Of a DNA stretch of 7,452 nt, positions 1 through 7,452 are shown piece by piece (position 1 is the stretch's first letter; each line of letters begins with the position of its first letter). The stretch comes from Rhodoferax sp. (GTDB lineage Bacteria > Pseudomonadota > Gammaproteobacteria > Burkholderiales > Burkholderiaceae): contig JAIFMT010000151.1 of assembly GCA_020048295.1 (NCBI GenBank), positions 1 through 7,452 on the forward strand, read 5' to 3'. The notes under the pieces were generated by a model. That model ran no database searches and was not told the origin of the DNA. It saw nothing but the letters and a program-made list of their open reading frames with translations. The translations under genes were made by a program, and so were the position numbers.

Positions 1-54
1 GTCGGCATTAAGCAGCCCATAACCGCCATCCACCAGGCCGGTCACGATGTCGGC
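1..54 (-). repeat. In-frame repeat, second copy (residues 958-975)
   Basis: This segment encodes ADIVTGLVDGGYGLLNAD, identical to residues 895-912 of the same protein. It differs from the other copy at six nucleotides, all synonymous third positions. The preceding codon is Thr here and Lys in the other copy, and similarity stops there. The downstream limit is cut by the window edge. Confidence 0.85.
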
Positions 55-2925
55 CGTCACCTGCCAGGCGTTGTTGACAAACTGCTGGTCAAGCAAGCGG
101 CCATTGCAGCCGGCCGAGCTGCCAAACAACAGCAGCGGTACGCGCCGGCGCGCCAGAATCGCTTGCCTGACTGCCGCGTAATTGCGGCTGTCGGCGTTGA
201 GCAGACCATAGCCGCCATCCACCAGGCCGGTGACGATATCGGCTTTTGACTCGATCACCGCTTGCTCGCTGCCGTGGTAGTTCAGGTGCTCGTTGCCCAC
301 TTCAGTCAACACAAACAGGTGCGGACGGACGTACTGACTGCGTTGGGCCAGCTTGCCCGGATGGGTGCCTGCCGCCTCAATGATGGCCACGCGATCCTGT
401 TGCCGGATTGAGGCCAGGCTGCCCATGATGGCAAAGCTCAGGTTCGAGCTGTGCGTGGTGGCGTGAGTCGAGATTTGTGGACTCAGGGCGTGGTGCAGCA
501 TGTTCTTGAAGCCGGTCTTGCCCTCGGTACCGCTGACCAACACGCGTTGGCCGGTAAACAGGTGGTCACGCACATGCCTGCCGAGCTGCTCAACGGCCGT
601 CAACAAATGATCGACACGCAGTACTGGCAAGTCTTGCGGCAAGCCTTCAGCCCACGTGGGCACCATGGCAGCTGCGGCACCGGCCTGGATAGCTTTGCGA
701 ACCGATGCCACGCTTTCTGCATCAAATGTCTCGTTGGAAACGCCAACTTTCATGGCAACAAACAAATTGCCGGCACTGCCTTCGACCAGGTATTTCCGTC
801 TGAAACTCAGGCCAGTCAACAACGTCCCCTCGGGCAGGTTGTGCCAACGGCCGCCCGTCACGGCGGCCATGGTGGCAGCATCCAGCAGCAAGGGGTTCTC
901 TGCAGTGGCCAATTTTGGGGGGTACTGCCTGGGTGAATGGGCAGCAACGACTGCGTCTTCAGGGGTCTGTTGCCAATCGACCAACAGGCGCGCCACCGCC
1001 AGGGCGGGCAAGCGCGCCAGCTTTTCGGCGGTGCTGACACCCGCCACCCCACGGGGGGCCGACTCGCTGACCAGCAGTTCGCCAAGATAGACCTGTCCAA
1101 AACGCAGCCGGGCATCGTCGGTCGCGATTGGCATGGCCTGGCCGCCTTCCATGTCCACCAACGACCAGCACAGCAGGTAGCTGCCGGCTGGCACCCGTAT
1201 CGCCGGCCGCACCACCACGCGGTCGCAGATGATCTGCGCTGGCAGCCAGCGCGCTGGTGGATGAATGCCTTCGGCCACCGGGTGGGTGTAGGCAAAGGCC
1301 TGAGAGCCGTCAGGCCGCAGGCCGGTAATGCGCGCCTCGACCCGGCTGGGCATGGCGGGCGCCGCCGCCTGAAAATAAACTTCACAAACAAATCCTCTTC
1401 CAGCCCTTACTGGACTTGCGTAGCGTGCTCCTAAAATAGTTAGGTTGGGGTTGATGTGCAACGGCCTTGGCCAGGCCTGGTTGTTGCCCTGTATGGCGGT
1501 ATAGACCAGATTGCTTTGGTGTCTGTGCAATGGCTCTGGCAGTGTCAAGGTTCTCGGCCCATCGTGCGGCTGGCTTGGCAAGCTGGGTTTGCGTCGCGTT
1601 GGTCTGGCCAGGTGCTGACCGCTGACACGCAGCCCGACCTCGGTCTTCTCAAGCCGGGTGGTGGGGTCGAGCGCAAGGCTCAGGGTGGTCAGCACCTCGC
1701 GAATGCGCTCAAAATCCTCACCTGTGGCCAGTCTGGCCCGCGCGTTGCTCAGCTTTACCGGGCGGATGGTGAGTTCGCACGACCCATCAGGCTGCCAGGT
1801 CAGCGCAAACAGCGCCGAGTCCTTCATGGTGTGCTGCGCCACCCGGTCAAACAGCAAGGTGCCCATGTCGTAAATGATCGGTCGCCCGAGGTGCATGGCC
1901 ACGCCATGCAGGATGTGTGCAGAGTGACCCAGCACGGCATCGGCACCGAGTTCGATCAGTTGCCGGGCGCTGTTCTGGATGCCCTGACTCGGCGCACTCA
2001 ACCAATTGATGCCCCAGTGCGGGCTGACGATGACGATGTCCGCGTGCGCGCGGGCAATCGCGATGGACCCGGCCAGCACGCTCGCCAGCCTGTCAACGGC
2101 CACGTGGTGGATGCCGGGCGTTGCGTCACCGGCGGCCATCACGGGCGTTTCGGTTTCCACGCCGATGAAAGCGACCGTCACGCCTTTGACCTTGGCGTAT
2201 TTGGGCAGCGCCGCATCAAGCCGGTTGCGGCCAGCACCAAATTGCAGAAAGCCACAGGCCTCCAGCGTGTCGGTTTGCTGCGCCAACGCGTCTGCGCCGT
2301 AGTCCATCGCATGGTTGTTGCCGGTGGCCACGCAGCCCACGCCCGCCTGAAGCAGCACATCGAGCATTTCGGGGTGCGCGTGGTAGTAATACGGCTGCTG
2401 TCCCCCCTTGTCGATAAAGTCGCCCTCAGAACTGATGCAGGTCTCCAGGTTGACCAGGCTCAGGTCGGCAGCCCGAAACAGCGCTGCCACCCCCGCCAGC
2501 GGATCGGCCGCACCGCGCAAGCCCACCCAGCCCGGCATTTGTCGGCCCAGCATGACATCGCCGCCCGCCACCAATTGAAGGCTGCCGGGCAAGGCGATGG
2601 GTACCGGCGGTGTGGCAGCACCTGCCTGGCACCACTGCGCCATGCGCTGTTGCAGCACCGCATCATCGTCAAAAGTCGGGTTTGCCTGGCTCTGTGTCTC
2701 CGCTGCCATGCTCAGTGCCAGCTGCAGGTAGCTACGGCCCATGCCCAGATTGCCGCGCAAACAACAGATTTGCGCAATCAGGGCATAGGGTTCACGCCGG
2801 TGCGGCCAATGCAGGATGGCGCGCCCCGCACTGTCGAGCGCTGTGACCCAATCCTGCCGTTCAATGGCCTGTTGTGCCTGTGCGGCCAGTTGGCGGGCCA
2901 GCTCTTGCTGATGCTGCGCTTGCAT
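1..2925 (-). CDS. TPR-CapA-beta sandwich-MurF-like ligase fusion protein, 3' end missing
   Basis: Open for 975 codons from ATG at 2925 to the window edge; I checked this frame and found no stop. Residues about 10-85 look TPR-like (QDWVTALDSAGRAIL). About 115-415 is a CapA/PGA_cap domain: GGDVMLGR 121-128, NLET 159-162, GNNHAMDYG 202-210, SPHWG 301-305, GHSAH 333-337, then YDMGTLLFD. About 510-600 reads as a beta-sandwich (RVPAGSYLLCWSLVD). From about 680 it is MurF-like: TGGRW at 690-694, ATP-binding loop GTEGKT 799-804, HLNYHGS 880-886, and K894 where Mur ligases carry the carbamylated lysine. CapA and a Mur-ligase-type CapB act together in poly-gamma-glutamate synthesis and export; here both lie in one chain, so an ATP-dependent amide-bond ligase for a surface polymer is my inference. 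The substrate is unknown. The start lies 17 nt after the upstream stop, without a strong Shine-Dalgarno, which suggests translational coupling. The Mur ligase C-terminal domain lies outside the window. Confidence 0.88.
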   Translation of the reverse strand, partial: MQAQHQQELARQLAAQAQQAIERQDWVTALDSAGRAILHWPHRREPYALIAQICCLRGNLGMGRSYLQLALSMAAETQSQANPTFDDDAVLQQRMAQWCQAGAATPPVPIALPGSLQLVAGGDVMLGRQMPGWVGLRGAADPLAGVAALFRAADLSLVNLETCISSEGDFIDKGGQQPYYYHAHPEMLDVLLQAGVGCVATGNNHAMDYGADALAQQTDTLEACGFLQFGAGRNRLDAALPKYAKVKGVTVAFIGVETETPVMAAGDATPGIHHVAVDRLASVLAGSIAIARAHADIVIVSPHWGINWLSAPSQGIQNSARQLIELGADAVLGHSAHILHGVAMHLGRPIIYDMGTLLFDRVAQHTMKDSALFALTWQPDGSCELTIRPVKLSNARARLATGEDFERIREVLTTLSLALDPTTRLEKTEVGLRVSGQHLARPTRRKPSLPSQPHDGPRTLTLPEPLHRHQSNLVYTAIQGNNQAWPRPLHINPNLTILGARYASPVRAGRGFVCEVYFQAAAPAMPSRVEARITGLRPDGSQAFAYTHPVAEGIHPPARWLPAQIICDRVVVRPAIRVPAGSYLLCWSLVDMEGGQAMPIATDDARLRFGQVYLGELLVSESAPRGVAGVSTAEKLARLPALAVARLLVDWQQTPEDAVVAAHSPRQYPPKLATAENPLLLDAATMAAVTGGRWHNLPEGTLLTGLSFRRKYLVEGSAGNLFVAMKVGVSNETFDAESVASVRKAIQAGAAAAMVPTWAEGLPQDLPVLRVDHLLTAVEQLGRHVRDHLFTGQRVLVSGTEGKTGFKNMLHHALSPQISTHATTHSSNLSFAIMGSLASIRQQDRVAIIEAAGTHPGKLAQRSQYVRPHLFVLTEVGNEHLNYHGSEQAVIESKADIVTGLVDGGYGLLNADSRNYAAVRQAILARRRVPLLLFGSSAGCNGRLLDQQFVNNAWQVTADIVTGLVDGGYGLLNAD
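190..243 (-). repeat. In-frame repeat, first copy (residues 895-912)
   Basis: This copy sits directly after K894, where the Mur ligase family usually has a segment like K-A-D-I, a glycine-rich turn and N-x-D. It is therefore probably the ancestral copy. The spacing to the second copy is 189 bp, exactly 63 codons. Confidence 0.85.
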
Positions 2926-2942
2926 GCCGGAGTCTTAGTGGC

Positions 2943-4754
2943 TCATGGCGCATCGTGCCAATACGGCAGCAACTTGGCAAAAAACGAGGCCACGTGCTGA
3001 ATCGTGTCAATGCGAAACCATTGACGGGTGTACTTGAACCGAATGCCGCCCAGAGCGATTTTTGGGTTGGGCGCAAAGTAAATGGCATCCTGGGTGTTGA
3101 CCAGATGCAGTAGCGCCCAGGCCGCCAGCACAATGGCTTGCCACAGCTCTGCGGCCTTGACGGTATCGCCCATCTTGACCGCCAGTTCGTAGGCGCCCAG
3201 CAAGCCCTCGCAGCGTGCGCCATCGGCATAGGGGTAGTCGCCAAATTCGTAATAAAAAGCCCCAGCGTAGTCGGGGTAAGGCGCATCGGTGACCTTGTAC
3301 ATGTGGTCAATCATCTTCTGCGCGTCTGAAAAAACAAACTCGGCATACTGGGGCCGGCGCATCTCGGCAAAATCCCACGCCTCCATGATGCCCATCATCA
3401 GCCAGCCGTCCGATGGCACGGCGCTGTACTCGCTGGCGCGGGTGATCGGGCGAACTTCCAGCAAAAAGGTCAAGGCCTGGTGCAGCTTTTCAATGATCGG
3501 CCCGCGCTGTTCGGGGCTGACCAGGTGCAGGTAGGCGGCCAGCCCGCAAATCGCCTCGCCGGGGTAAAAGAACGAAAAGTAATTCGGGTTTTCAGCCTCG
3601 GAAATCGGCTTGTCGAGGTACAGGTTGTAATAAATGAACTCGCCACTGGCGGTGACCTGGTTCACCAGGTGGCAGGCCAGCCGGTCTGCCCAAAGCCGGT
3701 AAGTGGTGTCGCCGGTGAATCGCTCATATTGCGCCAGCAAATACAGCGCAATGCCCGAGCCGCCAAGTTTGGACTTTTTTTCGCTATAAATGTAGGCCCC
3801 TTGCTGGCCGTTGTAATCTTGCAGGCGAGCCTGCGCCACCAGGTAGTCAATGGCCCGGGTGATGTTGCGCCAGGTATCGTTGCGCCGGTTGCAGCGCTCA
3901 TGAAACAGGCAGGTCATGCCGCCGCCGGCGTGGCGCAGGATGTTGTAGTAGGGGTTTTTGACCGGGTCGCGCGTGGGGTGCTCGTGATCGCGGTACGAAT
4001 TGGTGGCAGCGTCGTAGTAGTACAAAAATTTGCCGTTGGCTTTTTGTGTCAGCTTGATGTGCTCAATCGCCAGATCGACCGCGTGGGAAATTTTCTCGCG
4101 TGTCACTGCACCAACCACCGGATAACCCCGATACAGCGCCCGCCAGCCGTGTTGCGTGGCGAGGTAGCTGGCAGAGCGGAAGCACTCAAACGTCGCGGTG
4201 CGCACCACATCCTCGCCATAGGCACGATACAGATAATCGCGCAACTGGCCCATACCCATGACCGAGCGCACATAGGCATCGCCGGGGGGAAACACGTGCA
4301 GCTTGCCTTCGCGCGTGCGGATCAGCAGGCCATCCACGCCAATCTCAAAATGTCGCTCGCCGGCCTGCTCCATGCCAATCTGGAACAGGTCAACCCGCCG
4401 TGGGGCCTCGGTCACAAAGTCCAGTTGCAGGCTGCATGCCTCAGTGGCCAGGGCAACACGCCTTGCATGCGCCAGCACGTGTCCAAAGACATCGGTAAAG
4501 TCAAGTTTGCCGCCGTCAAACGCGCGTGACACCAGAATCCGGCGGTGTCCGGGTGCATACAGAATCAAAATCAGCCGCAGCGCCCGCTTGGGAAAGCTGC
4601 TATGCGCAAAGGCTTGGCGCAGTGCCGGCACGTCAACCTGGCCGCCGCGCAAACTGGCCATGAGCAGAGCATGAAGTAGTTGATCGGGCTCGGTTGGGGC
4701 GAATGGGTGCAGTCCACGCTCGGGTGCGTCAAACTGCGCCGGCATCAAAGGCAT
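2943..4754 (-). CDS. Two-domain protein with predicted (alpha/alpha) six-hairpin-type barrel
   Basis: The 603-residue protein has no signal peptide or membrane segment, so it is probably cytoplasmic. Residues 60-200 look alpha/beta, with a conserved-looking stretch HFEIGVDGLLIR (135-146) and FPPGDAYVRS (155-164); this faintly recalls AMMECR1 proteins, but I would not assign it. From about 220 to 600, helical hairpins alternate with glycine/aromatic turns: GKFLYYYD 241-248, YNILRHAGGG 270-279, KLGGSGIALYLLAQY 329-343, FYPGEAICGLAAYL 396-409, CEGLLGAYELA 515-525. That rhythm is typical of (alpha/alpha)6 folds such as six-hairpin glycosidases, GH105-like hydrolases and glucuronyl C5-epimerase C-termini. 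Acidic and aromatic residues are plentiful, but no specific catalytic pair can be named. It lies 17 nt upstream of the CapA-Mur ligase fusion gene, so the two are surely co-transcribed. A role in trimming, epimerising or binding a polymer or its precursor is inference. The start is supported by GGAGA six nt upstream. Confidence 0.85.
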   Translation of the reverse strand: MPLMPAQFDAPERGLHPFAPTEPDQLLHALLMASLRGGQVDVPALRQAFAHSSFPKRALRLILILYAPGHRRILVSRAFDGGKLDFTDVFGHVLAHARRVALATEACSLQLDFVTEAPRRVDLFQIGMEQAGERHFEIGVDGLLIRTREGKLHVFPPGDAYVRSVMGMGQLRDYLYRAYGEDVVRTATFECFRSASYLATQHGWRALYRGYPVVGAVTREKISHAVDLAIEHIKLTQKANGKFLYYYDAATNSYRDHEHPTRDPVKNPYYNILRHAGGGMTCLFHERCNRRNDTWRNITRAIDYLVAQARLQDYNGQQGAYIYSEKKSKLGGSGIALYLLAQYERFTGDTTYRLWADRLACHLVNQVTASGEFIYYNLYLDKPISEAENPNYFSFFYPGEAICGLAAYLHLVSPEQRGPIIEKLHQALTFLLEVRPITRASEYSAVPSDGWLMMGIMEAWDFAEMRRPQYAEFVFSDAQKMIDHMYKVTDAPYPDYAGAFYYEFGDYPYADGARCEGLLGAYELAVKMGDTVKAAELWQAIVLAAWALLHLVNTQDAIYFAPNPKIALGGIRFKYTRQWFRIDTIQHVASFFAKLLPYWHDAP

Positions 4755-4836: not shown

Positions 4837-5349
4837 CTACTTGCGAACCAGACGAATCAGGTGGCGCTGTTCGCGGTTGAGGGGGCTGCTTTCGCCATGC
4901 TGAAAGCTCACATACCAGGCCAGACTGGCACTGCCCAGGTAGGGCGATGCCGTGCAAAACCAGGCACTGGGTGTGGCCGGAAATGCGCTCGTATCAATGG
5001 TGGGGCTGCCCCGGCGGGTGTCGATCAGGCTGGAGAGCTCTTTGACTGTGGGCATGCGCCAGCCAGACTTTGCCTTGGCCAGCGCTGCTGCCTGTTTTTC
5101 TGAGTGGCTGCTGGCGGTGCCGGTGCAGGTGCCGTCTTTCCAGTGTTGTCCCAGGCTGCACCGCTGCCAGGTCAACCCGGTTCTGGCATCGGTCACCTCG
5201 GCACCATCGGCCGAGTAGGTAAAGCGCACTTGCGTTTCGGCCTGTGCCGGGGTGCTTGTGCACAGCAGGGGCAACAAGGCAAGGATGCTGGCCACCAATG
5301 GGCCATGGGCGTGGAAGGTGGCACGGAACAGGGTGTTGAAAAGCTTCAC
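4837..5349 (-). CDS. Secreted DUF1566 (Lcl C-terminal-like) domain protein
   Basis: The 170-residue protein begins with a signal peptide: a basic N-region, hydrophobic core at about 17-30 and AQA/ET cleavage after residue 37, so the mature protein should be periplasmic or exported. The rest matches the DUF1566 pattern: opening VTDARTGLTWQRCSLGQ (52-68), CTG near 75-77, WRMPTVKEL (97-105), SLID, SAFPATPSAWFCTASP (121-136), AWYVSFQHG (144-152) and terminal LIRLVR. C64 and C75 may form a disulphide. This domain is common in secreted and surface proteins, and no enzymatic activity is known to me. The start codon is GTG, with only a weak AGAG about nine nt upstream; no in-frame ATG would keep the signal peptide. 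It is the first gene of the minus-strand group, 82 nt ahead of the 603-residue protein gene, so co-transcription is possible but less certain than for the next pair. Confidence 0.85.
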   Translation of the reverse strand: MKLFNTLFRATFHAHGPLVASILALLPLLCTSTPAQAETQVRFTYSADGAEVTDARTGLTWQRCSLGQHWKDGTCTGTASSHSEKQAAALAKAKSGWRMPTVKELSSLIDTRRGSPTIDTSAFPATPSAWFCTASPYLGSASLAWYVSFQHGESSPLNREQRHLIRLVRK

Positions 5350-5550
5350 TTTGAATCTCTTGCTGAACGGTCGAAAAATGTCGGGCCAGCGCCCAAAATG
5401 TAAACCTGTCCATTATGAAGCGGCAAAGCCCGGCAATCCAGTGTCAGAAACCCGCGTAGGGCAACTGCTTTGCAAGGTGCTGCTGCAAAATGGTGGGTGC
5501 CTGGCCCAAGCCGGGTCAAAATCGCCACTTGTCTGACACTACTGCGCATC
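5350..5550. promoter_or_regulatory. Divergent intergenic region, probable promoters both ways
   Basis: These 201 bp separate the minus-strand DUF1566 gene from the plus-strand NTF2-like gene, so both transcripts should start here. On the minus strand, CATAAT at 5417-5412 is a reasonable -10 box about 63 nt before the GTG, but no good -35 lies 16-18 nt further upstream. On the plus strand I find no convincing sigma-70 pair. No clear operator palindrome or RNA gene is seen. A plus-strand frame is open through part of the region from a TTG at 5470, but its content does not look coding. Confidence 0.45.
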
Positions 5551-6000
5551 ATGTCCAAACTCACCAAAATGGCCCCCAACGTGGGTGGTTCGGTTGATGA
5601 AGCCGAAGCCAGCTTTTACGAAGCCCTGCAAAGCGCCGACCTGGAGCGCCTGATGGCGTGCTGGGCCGATGAAGACGACATTGTTTGCATTCACCCTGGC
5701 GGTGGCCGCCTGATTGGCCTGGGTGCCATCCGCGCCGCGTTCGAGGCCATGTTCAACAACGGCAGTTTGCGCATCCGGCCTGAGTCCATCCGCAAGGTGG
5801 ACAGCATGACGTGCGCCGTTCACAGCGTGCGCGAGCGCATCGAAGTGCTGACCAAGGAGGGTCCGGTGCAGGCGTTTGTGCTGGCCACCAACGTCTATCT
5901 CAAGACGGCCCAAGGCTGGCGCATGGTGGCGCATCACGCCAGCCCGGGCGCTGCACATGAGTCGCCCGACATCAGCGAAGTCCCCATTGTTTTACATTAA
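5551..6000 (+). CDS. NTF2-like / SnoaL-like domain protein
   Basis: The 149-residue protein fits the NTF2-like cone fold. An N-terminal helix (about 15-38, EAEASFYEALQSADLERLMACW) leads to DDIVCIHPGGGRLIG (42-56), a helix AIRAAFEAMF (59-68), then beta strands ending ATNVYLKTAQGWRMVAHHASP (112-132). The HPGG and TNVY...GWR..HHASP pattern is that of small SnoaL_3/DUF4440-type proteins common in beta- and gammaproteobacteria. Members of the fold range from isomerases to non-catalytic scaffolds, so no reaction is assigned. It is cytoplasmic, with no signal peptide. ATG 5551 is chosen because the domain begins soon after it; no Shine-Dalgarno is seen there, nor before the next ATG at 5569, which is also possible. 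It lies just upstream of the YheT-type hydrolase gene on the same strand. Confidence 0.85.
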   Translation: MSKLTKMAPNVGGSVDEAEASFYEALQSADLERLMACWADEDDIVCIHPGGGRLIGLGAIRAAFEAMFNNGSLRIRPESIRKVDSMTCAVHSVRERIEVLTKEGPVQAFVLATNVYLKTAQGWRMVAHHASPGAAHESPDISEVPIVLH

Positions 6001-6059
6001 ATTGGCCTCTAGACCATATGGATAAAGCGCAGGAAGCTATGAACTATGTAGCTTCTTGC
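5999..6059 (+). repeat. Putative dispersed intergenic repeat of Comamonadaceae type
   Basis: The gap after the NTF2-like stop starts with aaattggcctctag and continues through gataaagcgcaggaagctat to a gtagcttcttgc arm. From memory, short repeats carrying GGCCTCTAG, an A-rich GCGCAAG-like core and AGCTAT are scattered through Comamonadaceae genomes, usually between genes. This copy seems diverged. Only one copy lies in the window, so repetition cannot be shown here. Its right end enters the hydrolase reading frame. Confidence 0.5.
6029..6059 (+). promoter_or_regulatory. Hairpin covering the hydrolase ribosome binding site and start
   Basis: GAAGCTA (6033-6039) and TAGCTTC (6049-6055) pair perfectly. 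With one G-U pair the stem extends to 11 bp (6029-6039 with 6049-6059) around a nine-nt loop. The stem takes in the AGGA Shine-Dalgarno (6031-6034) and the A of the ATG at 6039. In mRNA it could lower translation of the hydrolase or make it depend on ribosomes arriving from the upstream gene. Function is inference. Confidence 0.55.
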
Positions 6060-7070
6060 TGGCTGCCCGGGGGACACGCGCAAACCATTTGGCCCGCGCT
6101 GCTGGGGCGCAATCGTCATCGGCTGGGCGGGCTGGCGCTGCCCGCCTACCGTCGCGAGCGCTGGGCCACACCTGACGCTGACTTTATCGACCTCGATTGG
6201 ATCGACGCGGCACCCGGCCAGCCACTGCTGGTTTTATTTCACGGGCTGGAAGGCTCGTCCAGAAGTCATTACGCGCTGGCCTTTGCAGAATTTGCGCAGC
6301 AGCACAGCCTGCGCTTTGTGGTGCCGCACTTTCGCGGCTGCAGCGGCGAGCCCAACCTGGCTCCGCGCGCCTACCATTCGGGCGATTTTGAGGAGATTGG
6401 CTGGGTGCTTGAGCGCCTGCGACTGCAGCACGCTGGCCCGATTCTTGTGGTGGGCATCTCGCTGGGCGGCAATGCGCTGCTGCGCTGGGCGCAAGAAGCC
6501 GGTAGCCTGGCGCAGCGTGCGGTGACGGCACTGGCCAGCATTTCTGCCCCGCTGGACCTGGCCGCCAGTGGGCAGGCCATGGGGCGTGGCTTAAACCGGC
6601 AGGTTTATACCCGCATGTTCCTGGCCAGCATGAAGCCCCGGGCGTTGCATAAGCTGGCACGCTACCCGGGGCTGTTTTGTGCCCAGGCGATGCATGCTGC
6701 CCGCGATCTGTTTGCATTTGACAATGTTTTTACTGCACCGCTGCATGGTTTCAAGGACACCCACGACTACTGGCGGCGCGCCTCTGCCAAGCCCCGGCTG
6801 GCGCAAGTTCAGTTGCCCGCCTTGCTGGTCAATGCCTTGAATGACCCGTTTGTTCCGGCCTGCAGCCTGCCACAACCCGGTGAGGTGGGTAAACACGTGA
6901 CGCTGTGGCAACCCCGACACGGCGGGCATGTGGGTTTTGCCAGCGGCAGGCCACCCTCGCACTGGCGCACTTTGCCCGATGCGGTGGGCGGCTGGTTGCT
7001 GTCACACCTGCCAGATGCAACTGGTGTGGCCGTTGCGCCCGCCTTGGCCCGAGGCCATGCCGATGGATGA
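6039..7070 (+). CDS. YheT-type alpha/beta hydrolase (COG0429 family)
   Basis: The 343-residue protein shows the opening signature of this family, WLPGGHAQTIWPALL (8-22), then the strand and oxyanion region LVLFHGLEGSS (64-74), RFVVPHFRGCSG (92-103), the nucleophile elbow GISLGGN with S141, the acid in NALNDPF (D269), and HGGHVGF, where H294 or H297 completes the triad. The length is normal for the family. Relatives are cytoplasmic or weakly membrane-associated serine hydrolases of the ABHD1/3 type with esterase-like activity; the physiological substrate is usually unknown. I prefer ATG 6039, which has AGGA about four nt upstream and lies just before the family signature. The in-frame ATG 6018 has no ribosome binding site and would add seven residues. 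The first codons lie in the putative dispersed repeat and a strong hairpin. It is probably co-transcribed with the NTF2-like gene before it and the overlapping gene after it. Confidence 0.92.
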   Translation: MNYVASCWLPGGHAQTIWPALLGRNRHRLGGLALPAYRRERWATPDADFIDLDWIDAAPGQPLLVLFHGLEGSSRSHYALAFAEFAQQHSLRFVVPHFRGCSGEPNLAPRAYHSGDFEEIGWVLERLRLQHAGPILVVGISLGGNALLRWAQEAGSLAQRAVTALASISAPLDLAASGQAMGRGLNRQVYTRMFLASMKPRALHKLARYPGLFCAQAMHAARDLFAFDNVFTAPLHGFKDTHDYWRRASAKPRLAQVQLPALLVNALNDPFVPACSLPQPGEVGKHVTLWQPRHGGHVGFASGRPPSHWRTLPDAVGGWLLSHLPDATGVAVAPALARGHADG

Positions 7071-7452
7071 CATCGTCAGACAAGCCATGGCCAAATGGCC
7101 GCATGTGCCCGATTGCTATGGCTGGCTGGGGCTGGATGCGCGCGGCCACTGGTTCATGCGCGATGACCGGGTACAGGCCCTGGGCCACTTTGCGTGCGGC
7201 GTGCCAGGCAGCAAGGGCTCGCGCTTGCAACACGACAAATTGATCGAGTTCATTGGCCGCAACTACAGTGCTGATGCCCAGGGCCAGTGGTTTTTTCAGA
7301 ACGGCCCGCAACGCGTGTATGTGGAACTTGAAATCGCCCCGCTGGTCTGGCGCGTGCAGCCAGACTTCAGTGTGCAGGATCACATTGGCCGCGCCACCAG
7401 CGTGCAGGGCTGCCTGGTGGATGAGCAGGGCTACCTTTACCTGGTGGGCGGT
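7063..7452 (+). CDS. Conserved protein of unknown function, 3' end missing
   Basis: The first 130 codons are present and open to the edge. The protein begins MDDIVRQAMAKWPHVPDCYG and continues with WLGLDARGHWFMRD, a KLIEFIGRNY segment, GQWFFQNGPQRVYVELE and PLVWRVQPD. This pattern matches a conserved betaproteobacterial protein that I believe carries a DUF number (perhaps DUF2944), which I cannot confirm. It has no signal peptide, membrane segment or recognised catalytic motif, and is rich in aromatic residues. ATG 7063 is preferred because GAGG (7051-7054) lies eight nt before it; ATG 7057, two codons earlier, sits too close. The start overlaps the hydrolase stop by eight nt (ATGGATGA), which indicates translational coupling. 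Confidence 0.8.
   Translation, partial: MDDIVRQAMAKWPHVPDCYGWLGLDARGHWFMRDDRVQALGHFACGVPGSKGSRLQHDKLIEFIGRNYSADAQGQWFFQNGPQRVYVELEIAPLVWRVQPDFSVQDHIGRATSVQGCLVDEQGYLYLVGG

Follow-up and report, generated by a model that had tools for sequence, protein, structure and literature searches.

A CapA and MurF-type fusion in a Rhodoferax contig and a candidate ligase island linked to Asp-repeat proteins

The locus studied here raises the question of what a protein might do that carries a CapA-family domain and a MurF-like ligase in one polypeptide chain. In this study, we analyzed a window of 7,452 nucleotides from Rhodoferax sp. (the whole stretch under analysis, positions 1 to 7,452 of contig JAIFMT010000151.1 in assembly GCA_020048295.1), whose minus strand holds such a fusion gene downstream of a gene for an (alpha/alpha) toroid protein. 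We favor the reading, tentatively and with a probability of roughly 0.38, that these genes belong to a cytosolic ligase island modifying type I-secreted low-complexity repeat proteins rich in Asp with Ser, Thr or Ala. The observations behind it are the fused architecture, the retained catalytic positions, the tight pairing of fusion and toroid genes, and a statistical link between toroid genes and repeat proteins. Loci, genomes and proteins of our surveys carry L, G and P numbers, respectively.

The CapA and MurF-type fusion and its relatives

A single open frame occupies the minus strand from 2925 to 1, comprising 975 codons without an end at the window edge, and no stop lies between the CapA and Mur parts. 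Pfam recovered in the translated protein both families that a preliminary description of this DNA had proposed, PGA_cap at residues 118–360 (E 3.4e-56) and Mur_ligase_M at residues 797–937 (E 5e-19), and all the motifs named there (GGD, NNH, GHSAH, GTEGKT, K894 and TGGRW) were located (Table 1). Alignment columns showed that the P-loop, the catalytic Glu and His, and the carbamylated-Lys positions are retained, their roles being those of Mur ligases in general; the putative catalytic Asp of the CapA part was assigned by its fold match to the lasso-peptide epimerase MslH. The ligase had been thought closer to MurF than to CapB, which the profile comparisons bore out, as no CapB/PgsB model was listed at E ≤ 1e-3 in NCBIfam, the best models were MurF types, and the closest solved structures of the ligase part were MurF as well. 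For the truncated window protein, the MurF models gave 112 bits of 544 and 107 bits of 288.6 (residues 718–935). The beta-sandwich between the two parts is based on beta strands at 397–532 in the AlphaFold model of the relative P0006; it matched no named family, and the fold comparison of the fusion barely covered it. Of the TPR domain described earlier, a helical N-terminus that looks TPR-like by eye remains, and Pfam detected no such domain.

The frame of at least 975 codons was confirmed as open, except that its last 15 codons (961–975) are an artefact and the real continuation differs. Window positions 1–54 and 190–243 form a direct repeat (89% alike, 6 mismatches, identical translation), and P0002, a relative of 1504 amino acids that is 99% identical to the window protein, departs from it after ADI, past residue 960; positions 1–45 are therefore regarded as a mis-join, probably a strain variant joined at the contig end. 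P0002 continues with a weak, sub-cut-off match to the Mur C-domain and with an LPG_synthase_C (GNAT) domain (E 2.9e-9), and by comparison with its sequence the window holds the N-terminal part, about the first two thirds, of a longer protein. The start differs as well: P0002 begins seven codons earlier, at an ATG overlapping the toroid stop in the window (2925–2946), and the P0002-type longer frame is closed in the window after three codons.

A protein search found 28 relatives, 13 of which (P0002–P0014, with P0012 from Sulfuricella) have both PF09587 and PF08245 in one chain according to a precomputed domain table. Automatic database names, for instance 'UDP-N-acetylmuramyl pentapeptide synthase/poly-gamma-glutamate capsule biosynthesis protein CapA' describe both parts, so the fusion architecture is already catalogued by automatic annotation, as had been suspected. 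Some fusions (P0004 and the L001 protein) contain a kinase-like APH insert. P0014 retains the Mur motifs, P0009 has GTDGKT and is without Lys at the carbamylated-Lys position, and the same CapA domain is fused to family-2 glycosyltransferases in P0019–P0021, P0024 and P0025. The architecture also recurs in other genomes. An alignment search of one genome per species (GTDB 220) gave two loci, L001 of Gallionella and L002 of Sulfuricella; the Gallionella fusion (L001:9920–14230) stops in the linker just ahead of where the GNAT domain of relatives starts. Among 158 genomes of the family to which the Gallionella genome G001 belongs, 7 matched at E ≤ 1e-40 (three candidates scored per genome), and both parts were present only in G001. 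The order sample gave matches in 13 of 399 genomes, with the window-type fusion seen only in G001 and with two copies of a more distant toroid-CapA-Mur chain in G499. The architecture is uncommon and sporadic among the genomes searched. Scanning viral contigs with the family alignment gave no match, phages and plasmids gave only partial matches (<60% identity), fusion and toroid were both unmatched in PADLOC, and Rfam at gathering scores found nothing in the window. In the open-licence PubMed Central literature, no paper on the CapA-Mur fusion or its island was found, several listings holding the best-ranked part only.

Toroid genes and Asp-repeat proteins

The toroid gene ends 17 nucleotides before the fusion ATG, and the two genes likely form one operon. 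Toroid proteins were also listed for Desulfonatronum thioautotrophicum and Thiorhodovibrio winogradskyi. GH76 and sugar 2-epimerase toroid enzymes were the families considered for the window's toroid protein, which matched no Pfam family. Its fold comparison hardly covered residues before 215. An AMMECR1-like reading of the toroid N-terminus, made by eye, was dropped; a solved-structure profile search returned two matches (E 1.5 and 1.6), neither being AMMECR1.

Close toroid genes were detected in 1/158, 3/399 and 2/369 genomes for the family, order and class of G001, respectively, and in 3/131, 5/121 and 3/22 genomes for the families of G342, G792 and G002. These samples overlap and were searched at E limits from 1e-20 to 1e-40; they gave 12 genomes in total, in each of which one toroid locus was read. 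A protein with Asp at every second residue over 39 to 697 units was encoded at 8 of the 12 toroid loci and at none of 48 control loci (Fisher p 1.9e-7; 5e-6 with three alike loci counted once). The control loci, of 20 kb each, came from G001, G002, G342, G367, G792, G944, G954, G1042 and G1069, and none from G1066, G1089 or G1153. The tracts were of several types, including (SD)n in L001, (DA)n/(SD)n in L030, (DSDA)n in L041, (DADS)n in L089, (DSDADA)n in L090, and (DT)n in L042, L092 and L093, the toroids of the last three being 98% alike. Codons within the tracts are mixed, and selection therefore probably acts at the protein level. None of the 120 listed RTX relatives (553 were found in all) had a tract; generic RTX repeats dominated that search, which served solely as a control. 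The RTX tail of the L030 protein was found in 3/131 and 1/22 genomes, three of these four with a toroid; the fourth, G987, has two tails, one of which adjoins a gene reading as the nucleotidyltransferase-APH gene of the island. In L042 (11360–17434) and L093 (12481–18399), proteins of ~2000 amino acids consist mostly of (Asp-Thr)n and have a conserved N-terminus that appears by eye to be a LapA-type retention module; a family-41 glycosyltransferase is encoded near the L042 protein.

Other genes at the toroid loci encode parts of type I secretion systems (HlyD in L030, L090 and L042; an outer-membrane efflux protein in L041), LapG-type (229 bits, cut-off 320) and LapD-type proteins in L041, protein kinases in L030 and L041, and zinc-protease-like proteins in L001 and L002. 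An APH-domain protein of 806–820 amino acids was present in L001, L002 and L041, in L090 by homology and in L112 by eye, with nucleotidyltransferase matches below threshold in L001 and L002. The type of amide ligase varies, being a CapA-Mur fusion in the window, L001 and L002, and a separate MurF-like protein in L030 and L090. Cyanophycin-synthetase-like proteins were found in L041 (two, 11767–16678) and L089 (three matching stretches, 592–7936), where their genes adjoin the toroid and the (DSDA)n or (DADS)n genes; for the L041 pair, Pfam found no Mur domain and the P-loop looked degenerate by eye. In place of the window-type fusion, other toroid loci may have a separate ligase, either MurF-like or cyanophycin-synthetase-like. 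G342 has a separate GNAT gene (36% to P0002 1190–1504) on a contig other than that of the toroid. Toroid, CapA, Mur and GNAT parts occur in changing fusions. A second toroid context (L091:8280–16394, L094 and L033) has a Mur protein of 1037–1092 amino acids with a weak Fic-like stretch (L091 and L033), together with an aminotransferase near 2-aminoethylphosphonate enzymes and an NTP transferase, recognized by model in L091 and by eye in L094 and L033; it has no Asp-X protein.

Table 1. Features of the fusion gene and its upstream partner in the window
Feature	Position	Strand	Remarks
CapA/MurF fusion gene, reliable part, residues 1–960	46..2925	-	C-terminus beyond window
Apparent residues 961–975, assembly artefact at contig end	1..45	-	54-nucleotide repeat; divergence from P0002
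Helical N-terminal region, TPR-like by eye	2608..2925	-	No Pfam match
CapA/PGA_cap domain, MslH-like metallo-fold	1846..2574	-	GGD (D123), NNH (N203, H205), GHSAH (H334, H337)
Beta-sandwich linker domain, limits approximate	1006..1488	-	AlphaFold model of relative P0006 and alignment
MurF-type N-domain	541..912	-	TGGRW from 690; SFRRKY in place of SSDSRKI of housekeeping MurF
Mur ligase middle (ATPase) domain	115..537	-	P-loop GTEGKT from 799 (K803), E850, H880, K894
Upstream partner, 603-amino-acid (alpha/alpha) toroid protein	2943..4754	-	No Pfam family

The window contains further genes. Upstream of the toroid gene, positions 4837–5349 of the minus strand encode a protein of 170 amino acids; its N-terminus has a hydrophobic stretch, and it carries an Lcl_C domain (PF07603). 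Three genes on the plus strand appear unrelated and encode a SnoaL-like protein (5470–6000), an alpha/beta hydrolase (6018–7070; PRK10985 model 225.8 bits, cut-off 267) and a PF11161 protein (6928–7452).

A candidate protein-modification island and its alternatives

From these observations we infer the substrate, the bond and every catalytic step of the proposed island. Before export, the Mur domain would form an amide bond between an amino acid or a short peptide and a carboxylate; the simplest candidate is a repeat Asp side chain, in analogy to the action of the cyanophycin synthetase Mur domain on poly-Asp. Asp side chains are the most attractive candidate acceptors because the repeats alternate Asp and cyanophycin-synthetase-like enzymes occur at two toroid loci. 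The GNAT domain, where present, would extend the product from aminoacyl-tRNA, the CapA domain might set its stereochemistry by epimerization as MslH does, the toroid could trim or rearrange it, and the modified repeat protein would then be exported by type I secretion. A more specific version, which we consider rather unlikely, is that Mur-type, cyanophycin-synthetase-type and tRNA-dependent GNAT ligases act on (Asp-X)n proteins in the cytosol, attaching amide-linked, partly D-configured side chains to Asp and thereby making brush polymers that leave the cell by type I secretion as matrix or adhesin; such a product would be a ribosome-templated counterpart of cyanophycin. If the repeat proteins are modified, ribosomal templating would give access to dense anionic or amidated polymers, which would bear on biofilm matrix, metal binding and the design of biomaterials. 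The fusion is more than an odd capsule enzyme in that it points to an island, sporadic among the genomes searched, with amide ligases beside exported Asp-X proteins of tens to hundreds of units. It also suggests a candidate function for CapA-family proteins, whose annotation is capsule synthesis though a characterized relative is a peptide epimerase.

Several results weigh against modification of repeat proteins by this island. The window itself encodes no repeat protein, its link to them being by homology only, and no tract was found at nine further loci, among them the window and three distant toroid forms (L031, L032 and L033). No tract was seen in L091 (20 kb), L094 (8.8 kb) or L095 (4.8 kb), the last two being short contigs, and Mur and toroid genes occur without repeat proteins in L091, L094 and L033. 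L091 instead encodes an NTP transferase together with an aminotransferase akin to 2-aminoethylphosphonate enzymes (157 of 360.8 bits), and no Asp-X protein. The control loci were samples rather than whole genomes. The repeat of L002 is (DDHKVADTTPKA)n, other than strict Asp-X, and much of the repeat in L001 and in G987 (L112) is of the Asp-poor STTAPV type. In G987 (1.7 Mb) no toroid was found, and in the toroid genomes G944, G1153 and G367 no L030 RTX tail. The ligase is no fixed partner either, as L041 and L089 have cyanophycin-synthetase-like enzymes in its stead, and L092 and L093 gave no match at E 1e-8 to P0002, the L030 MurF-like protein or the cyanophycin-synthetase-like query. LPG_synthase_C is missing in 7 of the 13 fusions (P0005–P0008 and P0010–P0012), no GNAT domain was seen in the L001 and L002 fusions, and the CapA active-site motifs are lost in P0009 and P0014 (2 of 16 checked).

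The loci with Mur and toroid genes and no repeat protein would also fit an explanation that we regard as somewhat unlikely, namely that the product of the island is an amide-linked polymer or peptide conjugate of its own, with the repeat adhesin as a co-regulated part of the matrix and not the substrate. CapA and Mur-type ligases together do resemble poly-gamma-glutamate synthesis, and the APH protein, the weakly matched nucleotidyltransferase, and the aminotransferase and NTP transferase of the other toroid context could supply building blocks; but CapC (PF14102) was found in 0 of 7 relative genomes (G001 and G002 with the window-type fusion; B. subtilis control positive), CapB/PgsB was unmatched, and the CapA part is MslH-like, with no apparent membrane anchor. 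That a glycopeptide or peptide-phosphate side chain is placed on repeat Ser/Thr, with the amide ligase acting on the side-chain precursor and not on Asp, seems rather unlikely; the Asp-X repeat of L030 has a long Asp-Ala part devoid of Ser/Thr, and kinase and glycosyltransferase were not recognized at every toroid locus.

A MurF paralogue producing a variant peptidoglycan precursor would agree with the nearest solved structures and with the full N-M-C domain order of relatives, yet it appears very improbable. The whole ligase part of L002 scored 189 bits with the murF model (cut-off 288.6), the fusion, when aligned with the housekeeping MurF from the Gallionella relative, lacked the SDSR motif (the UDP contact of the MurF N-domain), the same Gallionella relative has a separate murF between genes reading as murE and mraY, and the distribution is sporadic. 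The preliminary description had proposed a ligase for an amide-linked polymer or a modified peptidoglycan-type precursor; as stated, this found no support, and the context favors secreted repeat proteins. The classical poly-gamma-glutamate and peptidoglycan readings fail these tests, and the context suggests a protein-modification island.

Comparison with known systems

The fusion is alike to the poly-gamma-glutamate synthase CapBCA/PgsBCA in having CapA-type and Mur-type parts. In contrast, these parts share one chain here, the ligase is of MurF type, no membrane anchor is apparent, and CapC was absent from all 7 relative genomes. The three-domain fold and the ATPase residues are shared with MurF; however, both SDSR and YNANP are replaced, the scores are below the cut-offs, and the fusion ligase is an extra paralogue. 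MslH, the lasso-peptide epimerase of the CapA family (PDB 8gq9 and 8itg), has its fold and catalytic Asp/His positions in common with the fusion, whose score with the MslH model NF038314 (63.8 bits) did not reach the cut-off of 700. MslH works as a single protein on the C-terminal Trp of a lasso precursor, whereas the fusion links such a domain to a ligase.

The Mur domain of cyanophycin synthetase CphA acts on poly-Asp. Unlike CphA, the window fusion is without ATP-grasp (no such domain in P0001, P0002 or P0004), and its proposed acceptor would be a ribosomal repeat protein, not enzyme-made poly-Asp. Asp-Ser/Thr repeats are in common with the Sdr/Clf surface proteins, whose Sdr repeats are glycosylated, and with LapA-type adhesins; the MSCRAMM model matches of L042 were all below cut-off and largely within the repeat, and the LapG/LapD-type genes beside L041 recall the LapA-type systems. 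In contrast to both groups, the repeat proteins described here are RTX-tailed or, by eye, LapA-like, include (DA)n and (DT)n forms, and have a ligase island alongside.
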